Assembly: GCF_001402915.1 (NCBI RefSeq)
Contig: NZ_CP012945.1
Coordinates: forward strand, 3,511,501 to 3,575,500
DNA length: 64,000 nucleotides
Source of the DNA: Devosia sp. A16
Lineage (GTDB): Bacteria > Pseudomonadota > Alphaproteobacteria > Rhizobiales > Devosiaceae
Direction of reading: 5' to 3'
Shown: positions 4,663-9,933 of the stretch, in pieces
How the letters are laid out: each line of letters starts with the position of its first letter
Numbering within the stretch: position 1 is the first letter of the stretch
The notes under the pieces: model-generated
The model's input: the letters and a program-made list of their open reading frames with translations, nothing else
The model's database searches: none
What the model was told of the DNA's origin: nothing
Program-made: the position numbers and the translations under genes

Positions 4663-5744
4663 TGTTCGGCCTCCCTTTCCAGCCGGTCGACCCACAGCGC
4701 GCAGCCCGAGGCCTTCACCGGCTCGCCGGCGCCCAGCCGCTCCAGCATGCGGTCATACTCGCCGCCCGAAGCCAGCACTTCGCCGTCCGAGCCTGTCATC
4801 TCGAAGACGATGCCGGTATAGTAGTCGAGCCGCGGCGAGAAGCTCGCATCGAAGATCACGTCGGCATTGGGCGATAGCGCCGCCAGCGCCGCAGCATGGT
4901 TGCGCACCTGGTAGAGCGGCTCGTCGAAGTCGAACCCGGCCTCCTTGCACATTTCCGAGATGCGCTCGAATGCCGTCTCGGTGCTCTCAGCCACCGACAG
5001 GTAGTTCTGCAGCAGCGCCACGGTCTCGGGCGGGATCGGCGCCGATTCCAGCGCCTGCTTTTCGAGGTAGCGGTCGGCGATTTCCTCCGGCGTGCGGCTG
5101 CCGATCAGGCTCAGGCCGCCCGACAGCATGGCATCGGTGACGATCTCGATCACCGTATCCCGGCTGTCCGGGGCAGGGGCGTCGACCTTCTGCTCGGGAT
5201 TGCTGAGCCGCTCCATCAGCCGCTCCAGCGCTTCGGGGTGGCCGAAGCGGTGGCGGATGCGGCTGCGCCAGGCCACCGGAATCTCGGCCGCCTCGAGGAA
5301 GGCTTCGAACAACCCGACCCCACCGAGCCGCACGTTCGGCGCGGTAATATCGTAAATGGCCAGCGCCCAGCGTGCGAAGGTCAGCACCTGGTCGAGCGCG
5401 TTGTCCGCGTCGGGCTGACCCAGGAGCTCGAGGCCCGCCTGTTCGTATTCGACCGGCGTCGAGTTCTGCTGGCGGAAGATCGGCCCGAGATAGGTGAAGG
5501 CCGACGGCACTCCGAGCAGCCCGTCCTCGAGATATTGCTGGGCGATGGGCAGGGTGAAGTCAGGCCTCAGGCAGTATTCGAGTCCGTTATTGGTGGTGGT
5601 CAGCAGCAGGTTTCGGCCGAATTCCTCGCCGGCGAGGTCGAAATACGGTCCGGCCGGCAGCAGCAGCGCCGGCGTGGCGCGCGTCACCGTGCGCGACTCG
5701 ACCAGCCGCACCAGCGCGGCATATCGTTCCGATGCTGTCTTCAC
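4659..5744 (-). CDS. hisZ: ATP phosphoribosyltransferase regulatory subunit
   Basis: HisZ is a catalytically inactive relative of the histidyl-tRNA synthetase core that assembles with short HisG into a histidine-inhibited hetero-octamer. The 361-residue protein has the class II synthetase-like pieces [22 protein letters not shown] and [10 protein letters not shown], and ends with SGGEYDRM and GCALWVDRL. It lies between hisS and hisG and is coupled to both: its GTG start overlaps the hisS stop (GTGA, 5741-5744) and its TGA overlaps the hisG ATG. Synthetase and its paralogue being adjacent fits the descent of HisZ from HisS. Confidence 0.93.
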
Positions 5745-7186
5745 TTATGGGCGTCCAGGTAGGCGGCGACCGCCGGCAACTGGGCGATGGCCGCAACAAT
5801 GGCGTCGAGGTCGCCGTCGCATTCGAACTGGCCCGGGCGCGCCGCCTTGTACTCGGCATTGTCGGCAATCGCCTTGGCGGCCTCCTTGCCGGCGATCAGG
5901 TCCTTGATCTGCACCTTGCCGAGCTCGCGTTCCTGGGTGCCTTCGATGATCACCGCCGGCGCGTTGCGCTTGTCGGCATAGGCCACCTGCTTGCCGAAAT
6001 TCCTGGTGTTGCCCATGAACATCTCGGCCCGGATACCTGCCCGGCGCAGCCGCGAGGTGATCGCCTGGTAGCGCGCCGTCTGGTCCTTATCGAGCACCAG
6101 CACCACCACCGGCCCGAGCGGCTCCTCGGCCCCGAGATTGCCGGTCAGGCGCAGGGCATTGGCCAGGCGGGAAACGCCGATCGAAAATCCGGTCGCCGGC
6201 ACCGGCTCGGAGCGGAAGCGCGACACCAGCCCGTCATAGCGGCCACCGCCACCGACAGCACCGAACACCACGTCCTGGCCCTTCTCGTTCTGGACCTTGA
6301 AGGTCAGTTCGATCTCGAACACCGGGCCGGTGTAATATTCGAGGCCGCGGACCACGGCTGGGTCGATCTTGATCTTGTCTGCGCCATAGCCCGCCGCGTC
6401 GAACAGCGCCTGCATGACGTTGAGTTCGGCGATCCCCTCGTTGTGCTCGGGCGGCTCACCGCGCACATAGTTCAGCACCACGGCGCGTTGCGCGTCACTG
6501 AGGCCCGCGCCTTTGGTGAAATCACCGCTCTCGTCCTTGCGACCTTCGCCGAGCAGCAGCGCCACTCCGTCGGTGCCGAACTTGTCGAGCTTGTCGATGG
6601 CGCGGAGCACCGAGAGCTTCTGCCCCTCGTCGGCCACACCGGCCGAGGCCAGCACCCCGTCGAGCACCTTGCGGTTATTCACCTTCACCACGTATTTGCC
6701 GGCAAGGCCGAGCGCATCCATGGTGTCGGCCATCATCATGCACATTTCGGCATCGGCCTCGGGGCCGGCTGCGCCGACGGTGTCGGCATCGAACTGCATG
6801 AACTGGCGGAAGCGCCCCGGCCCGGGCTTTTCGTTGCGGAACACATAGCCCGCACGGTAGCTGCGGTAGGGTTTTGCCAAGTCCTGGAAATGCTCGGCGA
6901 AGTGCCGGGCCAGCGGCGCCGTCAGGTCGTAGCGCAGGCTCATCCACTGTTCGTCGTCGTCCTGCAAACTGAACACCCCGGCGTTCGGCCGGTCGGTGTC
7001 GGGCAGGAACTTGCCGAGCGTCTCGGTGTACTCGAGCAGCGGTGTCTCGACCGGATCGAAACCATAGCGCTCGTACACGGCGCGAATCTTCGCCGTCATC
7101 GCGTTCACGGCCGAGATATCGGCGGGCAAACGGTCCTCGAAGCCGCGCGGCAGCCGCGGCGCGATGAGCTTCTTCTTGTCGGTCAT
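5741..7186 (-). CDS. hisS: Histidyl-tRNA synthetase
   Basis: Charges tRNA-His with histidine; class II synthetase of 481 residues. Visible motifs: motif 1 region ETPLLEYTE, motif 2 [20 protein letters not shown], the His-specific [12 protein letters not shown] and the motif 3 GFSIGVSRL, followed by an anticodon-binding domain with [10 protein letters not shown] near 360. First gene of the coupled hisS-hisZ-hisG-TSUP run. The matching tRNA-His at 14245-14321 has the unusual G1:U72/A73 acceptor end, so this enzyme should be the alphaproteobacterial type that does not need G-1. ATG start; no upstream coding gene competes. Confidence 0.96.
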
Positions 7187-7382
7187 GGTGTCTGCTGGTC
7201 AGAGCCCGGAATCTGAGGCTGGTTCCTAACGGAAAGCCCCCGTCGACTCAAGGAAAGCACCTGTGTCTTTGCGGCAACAGTAACATGCGTGGTGCGTCAG
7301 CCTGTCGCATCAGGGGTTGGCTTCGGTTTCGAGTCGGCGTATCAGCCCCTTCGTCCAACGCCAACCACAGAGGAGGCGACGC

Positions 7383-7445
7383 ATGATTCATTCGATGTTC
7401 GTTTCCGGTCCTGGCGTGACCAAAGCTGGCCTCAATCGCGCCTAA
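7383..7445 (+). CDS. Possible 20-residue leader or microprotein
   Basis: Within the 404-base gap between hisS and the small-gene cluster an ATG at 7383 follows AGAGGAGG at ideal distance (AGAGGA then 8 bases). The frame encodes 20 residues starting MIHSMFVSG and stops at TAA 7443-7445. The ribosome site is among the best in the window, which is the main argument; the peptide has no recognisable domain. It could be a leader peptide for the small genes downstream or a chance frame. I see nothing else in 7187-7590. Confidence 0.35.
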   Translation: MIHSMFVSGPGVTKAGLNRA

Positions 7446-7574
7446 ACCGCGCCGGCCCCTCCCCAGGGCCTCTTTCTCCAGCTCTCTCTAGCCTCGACTA
7501 GTCTTCAGCAACCGGTCTCGCCATCCGGCGCCTTCGCGTCCGGATTCCGTCGCCACCACCATTGTCTCTTCACC

Positions 7575-7608
7575 AGAGGACCGGGCCGCATTGTGCCCGG
7601 ACGAAATC
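7575..7608 (+). promoter_or_regulatory. Ribosome site with hairpin between SD and start (gene 1)
   Basis: AGAGGA (7575-7580) is followed at once by a 6-bp stem, CCGGGC (7581-7586) with GCCCGG (7595-7600), then 8 bases and ATG 7609. The linear distance of 28 bases is too long for initiation, but if the hairpin folds, the SD sits 8 bases from the start. The same layout recurs at 7913-7942 and 8233-8265. Confidence 0.55.
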
Positions 7609-7851
7609 ATGACTCTCGAACTGCAGACCCGTGCTCCGGCACGTTCGCACCGCGCTCTCGCGCACACCCATGTCGGCGTCGCCGGCGCGCTGGTTTCAGC
7701 CGCCGTCACGATGCTTGCCAACGCCCAGCTGGCCCGCGCGGGGCGACGCTACAAGTCGCGCGGCTCGCCACCTGTGCCCCAGCATCTCCGTCGCGATCTC
7801 GGGCTGATGCCCGAGGTGATGGAGCCGAAAAGCCACTGGGACTATCGGTAA
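7609..7851 (+). CDS. Small DUF1127-like protein 1
   Basis: An 80-residue basic protein. Its C-terminal part carries VPQHLRRDLGL, close to the (L)LRDIGL motif of DUF1127 proteins, short alphaproteobacterial Arg-rich proteins some of which bind RNA or affect phosphate and carbon metabolism. Residues 20-45 are Ala/Val-rich and mildly hydrophobic. Start: ATG 7609, with hairpin-bridged SD. A TTG at 7591, ten bases after the same SD, is a rival start but would put coding sequence through the hairpin. Followed 91 bases later by a second gene of the same kind. Confidence 0.6.
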   Translation: MTLELQTRAPARSHRALAHTHVGVAGALVSAAVTMLANAQLARAGRRYKSRGSPPVPQHLRRDLGLMPEVMEPKSHWDYR

Positions 7852-7912
7852 GCGCCTGCTGCGGTCTCGCATGAGGCCGCAGCGGTCCGCCGTCGTCCCT
7901 CTGCTTCGCATC

Positions 7913-7942
7913 AGAGGACCGGGTTTCCGCCCGGCAATTGAG
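7913..7942 (+). promoter_or_regulatory. Ribosome site with hairpin between SD and start (gene 2)
   Basis: AGAGGA (7913-7918) is followed by CCGGGT (7919-7924), a TTCC loop and GCCCGG (7929-7934), then 8 bases to ATG 7943. The stem matches the one before gene 1 apart from a G-T wobble; the loops differ, which suggests the stem is what is conserved. The 12 bases CAGAGGACCGGG are identical in both leaders. Confidence 0.55.
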
Positions 7943-8167
7943 ATGGTTCTCATCGTACGGGACCGTGACACGTCACGCGTCCTCAGCCCGCCCCAATTCG
8001 ACATCGGGCAGATTGGCTTCATCGGCCGAATTAGGCTGTTCATCGCCCGGCGCCGCGCCGATGCGATGCTCCGTCGCTTGCTCCGGCCCTATCGCCGGGG
8101 CAGCGCCGCGCCGCTGTCGCCACACCTGCTCAGGGATATCGGGCTGCCGCCCGACTTCCGGATGTAG
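7943..8167 (+). CDS. Small DUF1127-like protein 2
   Basis: A 74-residue Arg-rich protein ending LSPHLLRDIGLPPDFRM, which matches the DUF1127 core motif well, preceded by an Arg-rich helix (RLFIARRRADAMLRRLLR). The N-terminal 24 residues differ from ordinary DUF1127 proteins. ATG 7943 lies 8 bases after a hairpin that follows an SD. An in-frame ATG at 7871 would read through that leader and is less likely. Possibly an RNA-binding or regulatory microprotein, by family only. Confidence 0.65.
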   Translation: MVLIVRDRDTSRVLSPPQFDIGQIGFIGRIRLFIARRRADAMLRRLLRPYRRGSAAPLSPHLLRDIGLPPDFRM

Positions 8168-8232
8168 GCCGAGGGGCGCCGGTCCCGGACAAGCCCTCGC
8201 CGGGCCGGTGCCCGTCACCAGATTCATCATTC

Positions 8233-8265
8233 AAGGAGCCGGCGCTGACGCGTCCGGACACGCTC
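8233..8265 (+). promoter_or_regulatory. Ribosome site with hairpin between SD and start (gene 3)
   Basis: AAGGAG (8233-8238) is followed directly by CCGGCGC (8239-8245), a TGAC loop, GCG, a bulged T and CCGG (to 8257), then 8 bases to ATG 8266. This is a different stem sequence from genes 1 and 2 but the same geometry: SD, hairpin with no gap, exactly 8 bases, ATG. Confidence 0.5.
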
Positions 8266-8412
8266 ATGTTTTTGTTCAACCGCCCCGGCCAACAGCGCCG
8301 GAAGCCACGTCCCAATCAGTCCGAGCTGCCGCGCGAGCGGCAGAAAGACGGTCTGCCGCTCGTCGGCAACATCACCGGCCTCGAACTCATGGCCCTGTTC
8401 ATGAGCCGATGA
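8266..8412 (+). CDS. 48-residue microprotein, LELMAL family copy 1
   Basis: Starts MFLFNRPGQQRRK and ends GLELMALFMSR. It is a clear paralogue of the next gene: both share MF-x(2)-R/N-x-PG-x-RR, a basic/Pro-rich middle and a C-terminal LELMAL-x(3)-R amphipathic end. I do not recognise the family. The short length, basic N-terminal part and hydrophobic C-terminus resemble small regulatory or membrane-associated peptides, but no function can be assigned. Translation seems to depend on the hairpin-bridged ribosome site upstream. Confidence 0.5.
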   Translation: MFLFNRPGQQRRKPRPNQSELPRERQKDGLPLVGNITGLELMALFMSR

Positions 8413-8438
8413 CCCAACGCATCCGAGAGGACGACACC

Positions 8439-8573
8439 ATGTTCTTCCCCCGTAAGCCCGGCCTGCGCCGCGGCCCGCAAAAGCCGAAACATCCCCTCAA
8501 CCCGGACGATGAACTGCGCCCGCAACTCAGGCTGTCCAAGCTCGAACTGATGGCGCTGCTGCTGATCAGGTAG
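8439..8573 (+). CDS. 44-residue microprotein, LELMAL family copy 2
   Basis: Starts MFFPRKPGLRRG and ends KLELMALLLIR; paralogue of the gene 26 bases upstream, conserved at both ends and divergent in the middle. Here AGAGGA (8426-8431) is 7 unstructured bases from the ATG, an ordinary ribosome site, which makes it a useful contrast to the hairpin-bridged copies. Retention of both termini in two diverged copies argues that these are real proteins. Function unknown. Confidence 0.6.
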   Translation: MFFPRKPGLRRGPQKPKHPLNPDDELRPQLRLSKLELMALLLIR

Positions 8574-8627
8574 TCGATCTGATCGATGAGAAGCGGCCTC
8601 GTGCTACGCGCACGCGCCTCAAACTCG

Positions 8628-8714
8628 GTGTCATTCCCGCGAAAGCGGGAACCTCTGTTTCCGTGCCGGCAGCGCCATCGCAAACGGAGATCCCCGCTTT
8701 CGCGGGGATGACAC
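8628..8714. repeat. GTCATTCCCGCGAAAGCGGGAA-type inverted repeat
   Basis: An 87-base imperfect palindrome whose arms (about 8628-8662 and 8680-8714) each contain a smaller CCCGC-GAAA-GCGGG hairpin. It lies between the microprotein cluster and the 3' end of tag. A shorter relative is at 59611-59642. Dispersed palindromes of this kind are common in proteobacteria; it could end transcription from both sides. Confidence 0.6.
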
Positions 8715-8740
8715 TGAGAATGGGCGCAAATACTTGGAGG

Positions 8741-9343
8741 CTATTTCGGCCGCTTCAGCGCCTGGCGCTCTCCCTCCGCCTCCGCCCGGCAGAAGCAGCC
8801 GTCGACGTGATCGTTCACCAGCCCCATCGCCTGCATGAAGGCGTAGCTGGTGGTGGGGCCCACGAACGAGAAGCCGCGCTTGCGCAGATCCTTGCTCATC
8901 GTCTTGGACGCCGCGGTTTCGGCAGGGATGCTGCCCGAGACGATCGGCCCCTTCACCGGCTCCGGCTCGAAGCTCCAGAAATATGCGGCCAATGAGCCGA
9001 ATTCCTTCTGCACCTCCAGCGCCCGTTTGGCGTTGTTGATGGTCGAGGCGATCTTGCCGCGATGCCGGATGATGCCGGCATCCTGGAGCAGCCGTTCGAT
9101 ATCGGCCTCGCCCATCGCCGCGACCTTGCCGAGATCGAAGCCATGGAACGCAGCGCGAAAGTTCTCGCGCTTCCTGAGGATGGTGATCCACGCCAGCCCC
9201 GACTGGAAGCCTTCGAGGCAGAGTTTTTCGAACAGCCTGGTATCATCGGTGACCGGCCGCCCCCATTCGCGGTCGTGATAATGCTGGTATAGCGCGTCGC
9301 TCCCCGCCCAGCTGCAGCGCGTCACCTCGTTCGGCGTTGACAT
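8741..9343 (-). CDS. tag: DNA-3-methyladenine glycosylase I
   Basis: Removes 3-methyladenine from alkylated DNA in base-excision repair. The 200-residue length is normal for Tag. The zinc ligands are present: Cys in the N-terminal TRCSWAG, His in YHDREWG, and the C-terminal H-x3-C of VNDHVDGCFC. The LEGFQSGLAW and HRGKIASTINNA helices fit the HhH-glycosylase fold. ATG 9343 has AGGAG upstream; longer frames to 9511 run into the divergent regulator gene. Confidence 0.94.
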   Translation of the reverse strand: MSTPNEVTRCSWAGSDALYQHYHDREWGRPVTDDTRLFEKLCLEGFQSGLAWITILRKRENFRAAFHGFDLGKVAAMGEADIERLLQDAGIIRHRGKIASTINNAKRALEVQKEFGSLAAYFWSFEPEPVKGPIVSGSIPAETAASKTMSKDLRKRGFSFVGPTTSYAFMQAMGLVNDHVDGCFCRAEAEGERQALKRPK

Positions 9344-9498
9344 GGTTAACTCCTGGTAAATAGATGGCCCCGCGTGGCGGGATGAAGCAAGTCGCCGACT
9401 TTTCGTCTCCAACCTCGCGGCGAGCAACCCGGATTGGACGTCCGCGCGCTTCGACCTCGCGACCATGACTGGCGAAGCGGCTGGGGGGCCAAACGCCG

Positions 9499-9933
9499 AT
9501 GATTCTGCCACAGGACCTCAAAGCGCTTGTCGTCGACGACAATGCCTATGCGCGCGCCGCCGTGGCGGCAACCCTGCGCAAGCTCGGCCTCGTCTCGATC
9601 GATGAGCTCACCGGCGCGGCGGCGGCCGTGGGTGCCATCCAGGCGACGCGCTACGACATCATGTTCATGGATTGGTACATGCCGGAAATGAATGGCGCGG
9701 CGCTGCTCGAAGTCATCCGCGATCCCCGGTTTTCTGCCCATGGCCGGGTCCCCGTGGTGATGATCACCGCCTATCCAAACCGCGAGACCATGGCGCGCGC
9801 CAGGCAGCTGGGCGCCGGCGAGGTGCTCACCAAGCCGTTCACGATCGCCCATGCCGCCGCTGCCCTGGCTCGCCTGTTGCCGGATGGCTGGCAGATCCCC
9901 GCGGACGCGGACCCGGGGCAGGTGCTGTTGTAG
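9499..9933 (+). CDS. Single-domain response regulator (CheY-like)
   Basis: A 144-residue receiver domain with no output domain. All catalytic residues are visible: acidic pocket VVDDN, phosphoacceptor Asp in FMDWYMPEMNG, Thr in MITAYP and Lys in TKPF. It probably relays phosphate or acts by protein contact. No kinase is adjacent; the nearest kinase-like gene (14546) lacks its His. Divergent from tag across about 155 bases. Confidence 0.9.
   Translation: MILPQDLKALVVDDNAYARAAVAATLRKLGLVSIDELTGAAAAVGAIQATRYDIMFMDWYMPEMNGAALLEVIRDPRFSAHGRVPVVMITAYPNRETMARARQLGAGEVLTKPFTIAHAAAALARLLPDGWQIPADADPGQVLL

Follow-up and report, generated by a model that had tools for sequence, protein, structure and literature searches.

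Hairpins kept between Shine-Dalgarno sequence and start codon in small-gene leaders of a Devosia genome and its relatives: probable accommodated ribosome binding sites

How does translation begin at a start codon whose Shine-Dalgarno sequence (SD) lies more than 20 nt upstream? Linear SD-ATG distances of this length are too long for initiation, and the question is raised by three adjacent small genes in the 64,000 nt stretch of Devosia sp. A16 DNA analysed here (the window), each of which has a hairpin lodged between its SD and its ATG. We suggest, with a probability of roughly four in five, that each of these leaders would be an accommodated (split) ribosome binding site, here in the form of a conserved cellular leader element. 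The cluster and its surroundings contain the following features, where g1 to g4 are four consecutive small genes and uORF is the upstream open reading frame.

5741..7186, minus strand: presumably hisS, recognised from its translation, flank of the small-gene cluster
7370..7376, plus strand: strong uORF SD GAGGAGG, 6 nt before its ATG, without hairpin (sequence, hairpin scan)
7383..7445, plus strand: uORF of 20 codons, MIHSMFVSGPGVTKAGLNRA, ending 163 nt before g1 (place and distance like the duf1127_1 uORF)
7575..7580, plus strand: g1 SD AGAGGA (sequence)
7581..7600, plus strand: g1 hairpin CCGGGC, 8 nt loop, GCCCGG, -11.0 kcal/mol at 37°C (fold prediction; conserved)
7609..7851, plus strand: g1, P0001, 80 aa DUF1127-like small protein
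7913..7918, plus strand: g2 SD AGAGGA (sequence), predicted also to pair with CCTCTG at 7898-7903
7919..7934, plus strand: g2 hairpin CCGGGT, 4 nt loop, GCCCGG, -9.3 kcal/mol at 37°C (fold prediction)
7943..8167, plus strand: g2, P0002, 74 aa DUF1127-like small protein (PF06568 E 0.39, below cut-off)
8233..8238, plus strand: g3 SD AAGGAG (sequence)
8239..8257, plus strand: g3 hairpin CCGGCGC-TGAC-GCG(T)CCGG with a one-base bulge, -10.2 kcal/mol at 37°C (fold prediction)
8266..8412, plus strand: g3, P0003, 48 aa small protein, C-terminal GLELMALFMSR
8426..8431, plus strand: g4 plain SD AGAGGA, 7 nt before ATG 8439, without hairpin (sequence, hairpin scan)
8439..8573, plus strand: g4, 44 aa small protein, C-terminal end KLELMALLLIR
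within 8741..9511, minus strand: other flank, presumably DNA-glycosylase-like, recognised from its translation

The original prediction had described, at 7575-7611, 7913-7945 and 8233-8268, an SD followed without a gap by a hairpin, then 8 nt and the ATG, and this layout is correct to the base, with spacers at 7601-7608, 7935-7942 and 8258-8265 leading to ATGs at 7609, 7943 and 8266. Its stems for g1 (CCGGGC/GCCCGG) and g2 (CCGGGT/GCCCGG) read so from the sequence, g3 indeed combines a stem of other sequence with the same geometry, to which we add the one-base bulge that had gone unmentioned, and the plain SD of g4 stands 7 bases from its start as described. The SDs of g1 and g2 match the anti-SD over only 4 consecutive nt. 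When the leaders are folded in a wider context (-80..+60), the outer pairs of the g2 hairpin keep probabilities of 0.91-0.97, and in g1 the first pair falls to 0.18 while the next three stay at 0.98-1.0; for g3 a competing fold beats the hairpin (0.01), which in this prediction points against the hairpin being always formed. A second hairpin, CCTCTG..CAGAGG at 7898-7917, lies directly upstream of the g2 hairpin and would be able to mask the g2 SD. An Rfam covariance-model search of 7150-8750 (E up to 1) gave no match at the leaders; its two weak hits, both on the minus strand, are to RNA families of eukaryotes and fall far short of their cut-offs.

None of P0001, P0002, P0003 and the g4 product reaches the Pfam cut-off for PF06568 (DUF1127); one homolog, in S. 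meliloti RCAM1115, carries the DUF1127 annotation. Four named records with a g1 that is 91-95% identical were found, from Devosia sp. Root413D1, D. insulae DS-56 and two Devosia MAGs. At two related loci, L004 and L005, the cluster 3' of g1 has undergone tandem expansion to five small genes, and every leader there has the order SD, hairpin, 8 or 9 nt, ATG. Downstream of g4, the intergenic sequence at 8630-8715 contains CCCGCGAAAGCGGG and CCCCGCTTTCGCGGGG and resembles a dispersed repeat element.

To be counted, a hairpin had to abut the SD, have at least 5 pairs, reach -7 kcal/mol or better, and end 7-9 nt before the ATG. Such a hairpin is found in 110 of 114 real leaders, as against 152 of 5700 sequences in which the letters between SD and ATG had been shuffled. 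For 76 of the 114 leaders the start is position 1 of a protein profile, and the other 38 belong to the first genus and its close relatives; for the five proteins behind the second-genus profile, starts were chosen with the leaders in view. In a second scan, an SD-abutting hairpin ending 7-9 nt before the ATG is present in 73 of the 76 profile-defined leaders (the failures are L103, the second gene of L140, and L157) and in 38/38 of the others, of which 20, of g2 to g4 type, had been picked by a hairpin-like pattern and several more had their start selected among in-frame candidates with the hairpin in view. The profile-defined set leaves out partial or weak matches, the second genes of G116 and G091, the second G087 match, and L156, which does have the hairpin; outside the 114 altogether are the hairpin-less g2 of L008 and L009, g4 of L002 and L003, and the L012 gene. 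Four early weak protein matches (L075, L079, L083, L085) have no clear hairpin at their listed starts; in the genomes of L083 and L085 a better match (L148, L191) does have one, L076 and L193 denote a single gene, which carries the hairpin, and L080 was left out of this comparison.

The same scan found no hairpin at the window's uORF or at g4, and none in 8 tested DUF1127 paralogs of the window's genome (drawn from 12 PF06568 matches with E no higher than 1, six of the tested paralogs scoring above the cut-off). When SD-like tetramers lying 20-36 nt ahead of any ATG were taken throughout the window (457 placements), 15 matches resulted, six of which are g1, g2 and g3, each counted twice, with nine elsewhere. 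The hairpin arrangement is not due to chance.

Which quantity is held constant is seen from the geometry of the 114 leaders. The linear SD-ATG distance averages 30.2 nt (sd 2.9, range 22-41) and hairpin length runs from 14 to 29 nt, with loops of 3-8 nt and variable letters; with the hairpin folded out, the effective distance has a mean of 8.0 and an sd of 1.2. The hairpin follows the SD with a gap of 0 in 99/114 leaders and, anchored on the SD, ends exactly 8 nt before the ATG in 81/114. It is the effective and not the linear spacing that is constant, as an accommodated ribosome binding site predicts, and the leaders accordingly have the properties of a split site, namely a linear distance that is too long, and a hairpin between SD and AUG that leaves both outside and restores a functional distance. 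In folds over -60..+9 the hairpin has a probability above 0.5 in 103/114 leaders and falls below in 11. The SD itself is often predicted to pair upstream (mean unpaired probability below 0.3 in 63/114 leaders), which, as far as such folds can tell, leaves room for a switch.

Evolution has in places replaced the hairpin. The g2 leaders of the window and of L003 to L007 have it; those of L008 and L009 do not, and instead have GAGGGA 3 and 6 nt before the ATG; a plain SD would normally stand further off than the 3 nt of L008, which become 5 nt when GAGG alone is taken as the SD. Conversely, g4 has the hairpin in L004 and L005, and in the window and L003 its ATG follows a plain AGAGGA at a distance of 7 nt. 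Among these homologs, loss of the hairpin goes with a short linear SD spacing (3-7 nt), as the accommodation model predicts.

The stems were also examined for covariation. In the class without bulges, an alignment of 20 rows has 153 paired cells among 160 and shows 10 both-side changes, against a maximum of 151 in 1000 shuffles. Across all lineages, with 130 distinct hairpins, 515/520 cells of the outer four pairs are paired (1000 shuffles: mean 465, maximum 474); in these two comparisons structure is conserved by compensatory change. The internal-loop class, with 179/184 cells paired, equals its shuffled maximum of 179, and the outer four pairs of the 98-row alignment A3 (382/392) stand beside a shuffled maximum of 383. 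Pair 3 across the 130 hairpins is GC in 101, TG in 13, AT in 6, CG in 5, GT in 3 and TA in 1, with one mismatch. The letters of the stem change with lineage, to CCGAAGCG/CGCTTCGG, CCAG/CTGG, TCTGG/CCAGA, CCCGAC/GTCGGG or ACG.CCGCAC/GTGCGG.CGT. G.U pairs make up 56 of 805 helix pairs, and of the 19 distinct hairpins from Rhizobiaceae and one Phyllobacterium, 13 have T.G as their third pair; such pairs would speak for pairing in RNA rather than in DNA. We regard these shuffles as a weaker control than the shuffling of the SD-ATG segment together with the profile-defined starts, because the fold was itself the means of recognising these hairpins, and kinship among the sequences is disregarded in the shuffle.

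How far the arrangement extends was followed through three families. In the host family, the g1 profile matches in 31/136 genomes and the second-genus profile in 83/136, and another genus of the family has the stem CCAG/CTGG at the same place. An order-wide search matched 31 of 397 genomes, 11 of them from other families; in these 11 the hairpin is present in 5, absent from 5, and 1 was left out. In the second family 3/28 genomes are matched and 3/3 have the hairpin (stems ACG.CCGCAC/GTGCGG.CGT and CCGC/GCGG); in the third, the match is in 17/199 genomes and the hairpin in 14 of the 17, with stems CCTGG/CCGGG, CCCGAC/GTCGGG and TCTGG/CCAGA. We take the third family to be Rhizobiaceae because the homologs lie on 86 Sinorhizobium, Rhizobium and related replicons; its effective spacing is 10-11 in 18 of 20 passing leaders.

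Pooled, 30 of 33 leaders from other lineages pass, by a looser test that 261/1500 shuffles also pass. The 33 come from the second and third families, from further genera of the first, and from six named replicons, several of their starts having been chosen with the hairpin in view. This count excludes L198-L200 and L207, for which no start was set close to the match, L205, whose ATG has neither SD nor hairpin, as well as L227 and the match in G382; L206 and L208 duplicate L212 and L213. The failures are L201, L221 and L228. In L221 the 60 nt before the start contain an SD and hairpin, yet they also hold AAAAGG as a second, plain SD 7 nt upstream of the ATG, as though the site were being replaced. 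Judged by these comparisons, the arrangement is kept, with changing letters, in at least three bacterial families. The original prediction of structure-dependent initiation is thereby strongly supported, as far as comparison can do so (pairing kept while letters change, effective spacing near 8, hairpin length variable), and the conservation of stem and spacing in relatives, which it had proposed as a check, comes out in its favour (73/76 profile-defined starts; 515/520 outer cells paired).

A covariance model of the hairpin, run on 12 genomes with 150 candidates per genome scored, gave 97 matches at E up to 1, the strongest mostly at small-gene clusters; it reported window g1 and g3 and missed g2 and the known G129 site, so that a genome region without a match need not lack the element. 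Two sites outside the cluster are among the strongest, L160 (genome G079, E 7.6e-6) and L161 (genome G129, 6.8e-5), and each precedes a similar 27-codon ORF. Of 20 further matches examined, L166 is the cluster of another genus, and in 11 of the other 19 (L160 and L161 included) the ATG frame is open upstream for at least 50 codons, as inside coding sequence. L171 and L167 have a fitting geometry; away from the cluster, L171 (G079, contig 493234-493274) has GAGGAG, a hairpin-like stretch and an ATG that opens an ORF of 245 codons or more.

The hairpin could instead be primarily a protein-binding site, possibly for the DUF1127-type product itself, so that binding would block initiation (autoregulation) and the free hairpin would be neutral. 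The outer CCGG/CCGG is conserved beyond what pairing alone needs, which could leave room for binding by a protein; the Rhodobacter DUF1127 protein CcaF1 is described as RNA-binding (related in PMC12218461), and the best covariance-model matches fall mostly at this small-gene family. A protein-binding site would, however, sit poorly with loops that vary in length (3-8) and letters, with stem letters that differ between lineages, and with the products of g3 and g4, which by eye are without a DUF1127 tail although g3 and the g4 of L004 and L005 have the hairpin; moreover, it leaves the fixed effective spacing unexplained unless it is joined with accommodation. We consider it unlikely as the primary role, while granting it some weight.

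A repressive or switch element is the second alternative, in which upstream stems would mask the SD, the hairpin would stabilise the closed state, and uORF translation, a helicase or a shortage of ribosomes would open it. The g2 SD is predicted to be paired with CCTCTG so fully that all but its last base are below 0.02 unpaired, of the five hairpin-bearing g2 orthologs four (L003, L005, L006 and L007) show similar SD-masking arms, and SDs predicted as largely paired are frequent among the 114 leaders, as given above. The S. meliloti leader family, too, senses translation status, yet its regulation has been traced to transcription attenuation further upstream (PMC12218461). The hairpin, for its part, pairs with neither SD nor ATG, and the masking arm is missing from the g2 leader of L004. 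That the hairpin serves mainly as such a switch seems to us quite improbable.

Initiation at in-frame NTG codons inside the hairpin, such as TTG 7591 for g1, would make the SD spacing ordinary and the inverted repeat mere codons; TTG 7591 does follow the g1 SD at 10 nt, with an open frame down to the ATG, and such a codon (in frame, 4-13 nt after the SD, open to the ATG) occurs in 32/114 leaders. There is none in the remaining 82, window g2 and g3 among them, the SD-ATG length is not kept modulo 3 (48, 48 and 18 leaders), and indels separate orthologous hairpins; TTG 7591, which the original prediction had named as a possible alternative, is thus not a conserved start, and we reject NTG starts as a general account, which we hold to be very improbable. 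That the repeat is a DNA operator or mobile palindrome lying in the leader by chance is scarcely credible, for although CCGG..CCGG is palindromic in DNA, its position between SD and ATG is fixed and strand-specific, its loop length varies, G.U pairs are tolerated (56/805 overall), and a pattern of the CCGG form has 13 matches in the window's genome, 3 of them here, versus 4 for the reversed control pattern.

RNA thermometers also have structure at the initiation region, with the SD or the AUG held in a helix. An RNA thermometer was rejected for the hairpin, whose stems leave SD and ATG outside and are still at -6.6 to -7.5 kcal/mol at 55°C in prediction; this applies to the hairpin and not to the upstream SD-pairing arm. 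The response to temperature that had been proposed for the leaders is thus unsupported.

An accommodated ribosome binding site, our preferred reading, would work as follows. The mRNA would fold a short, stable hairpin directly 3' of the SD, and with this hairpin carried in folded form, SD and start codon would be effectively about 8 nt apart (mostly 10-11 in Rhizobiaceae), so that the 30S subunit could pair with the SD and set the ATG in the P site. The hairpin would presumably remain folded on the 30S subunit and, as the zero gap suggests, may stack on the SD/anti-SD helix; it would probably be required for efficient initiation.

The hairpin is probably the second, translational part of a leader that begins with the uORF. 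An SD-bearing uORF of 15-32 codons whose end lies 120-180 nt upstream is found at 66 of 69 profile-defined loci (14/3450 shuffles) and at 15 of 17 other loci, the window included (8/850 shuffles); the loci without one are L153, L157, L159, L013 and L015. The uORF peptides have GPG in the middle at 8 loci in the right orientation.

The homolog on pSymB of S. meliloti 1021 (L229) is duf1127_1 of PMC12218461, an identification that follows from the paper's dyad sequence, whose position here gives a transcription start 279 nt upstream of the ATG, in agreement with the published distance. At this locus a 29-codon uORF begins 30 nt after the transcription start and ends 159 nt upstream of the gene, and the gene's own leader consists of the SD AAAGGA, a hairpin CCTGGC..GCCGGG, 10 nt and the ATG. 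According to PMC12218461, duf1127_1 is the S. meliloti gene most strongly induced by tetracycline, its leader senses translation status by transcription attenuation upstream, premature and probably Rho-dependent termination that requires uORF translation has been proposed, with relief by inhibitors of translation reported, and translational fusions make protein; in the parts considered, the paper places attenuation at the uORF and does not discuss the SD-ATG hairpin. The small genes are homologous and the uORFs similarly placed (29 codons and 159 nt versus 20 codons and 163 nt in the window), whereas the two uORF peptides are unlike by eye. From the uORF at the same distance and the shared order of SD, hairpin and ATG, the window cluster appears to have the same two-part leader, with g2 and g3 carrying the hairpin part.

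More tentatively, and with doubt prevailing, these leaders could belong to an order-wide class of cellular ribosome binding sites in which a hairpin stacked on the SD/anti-SD helix sets the SD-AUG distance, so that translation-stress genes would be initiated or held back by the state of the ribosome (shortage, or drug-stalled initiation), as the translational partner of the uORF attenuator. For the published translation-status-sensing leader, the hairpin adds a part. More than 100 leaders in which effective spacing was kept while evolution changed much else form a natural replicate set, and a clean test of how much structure in the spacer the 30S subunit tolerates; gene finders that score linear SD spacing could misjudge such starts.

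A cellular split ribosome binding site is also known from E. coli thrS, where the hairpin is said to sit on the 5' side of the SD, separating it from a single-stranded standby stretch, and not between SD and AUG. On the thrS mRNA, a long hairpin reportedly stays folded while the ribosome accommodates it (PMC3936740). Structure at the initiation region is likewise found in the T4 genes e, soc and I-TevI, where the SD or AUG lies inside a helix (PMC3014915), whereas in our leaders neither is in the hairpin. A conserved cellular hairpin family between SD and AUG, tied to a translation-sensing leader, we did not find in the literature searched, many subscription journals lying outside it; the kind of site is known from T4. 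In T4 genes 25 and 38, linear SD-AUG distances of 27 and 22 nt are brought to 11 and 5 nt by structure between the two, mutations that weaken the structure lower initiation, and the stem of gene 25 has been retained across about 30 T-even phages (PMC3014915). The T4 sites are backed by mutants, and the present leaders are known from sequence comparison and predicted folds. Common to both is an SD too distant in line and a structure between SD and AUG that shortens the distance; unlike those of T4, the leaders described here are cellular, are found in at least three bacterial families and in up to five tandem genes per cluster, and have a hairpin that abuts the SD, is re-lettered between lineages and is linked to a uORF leader.
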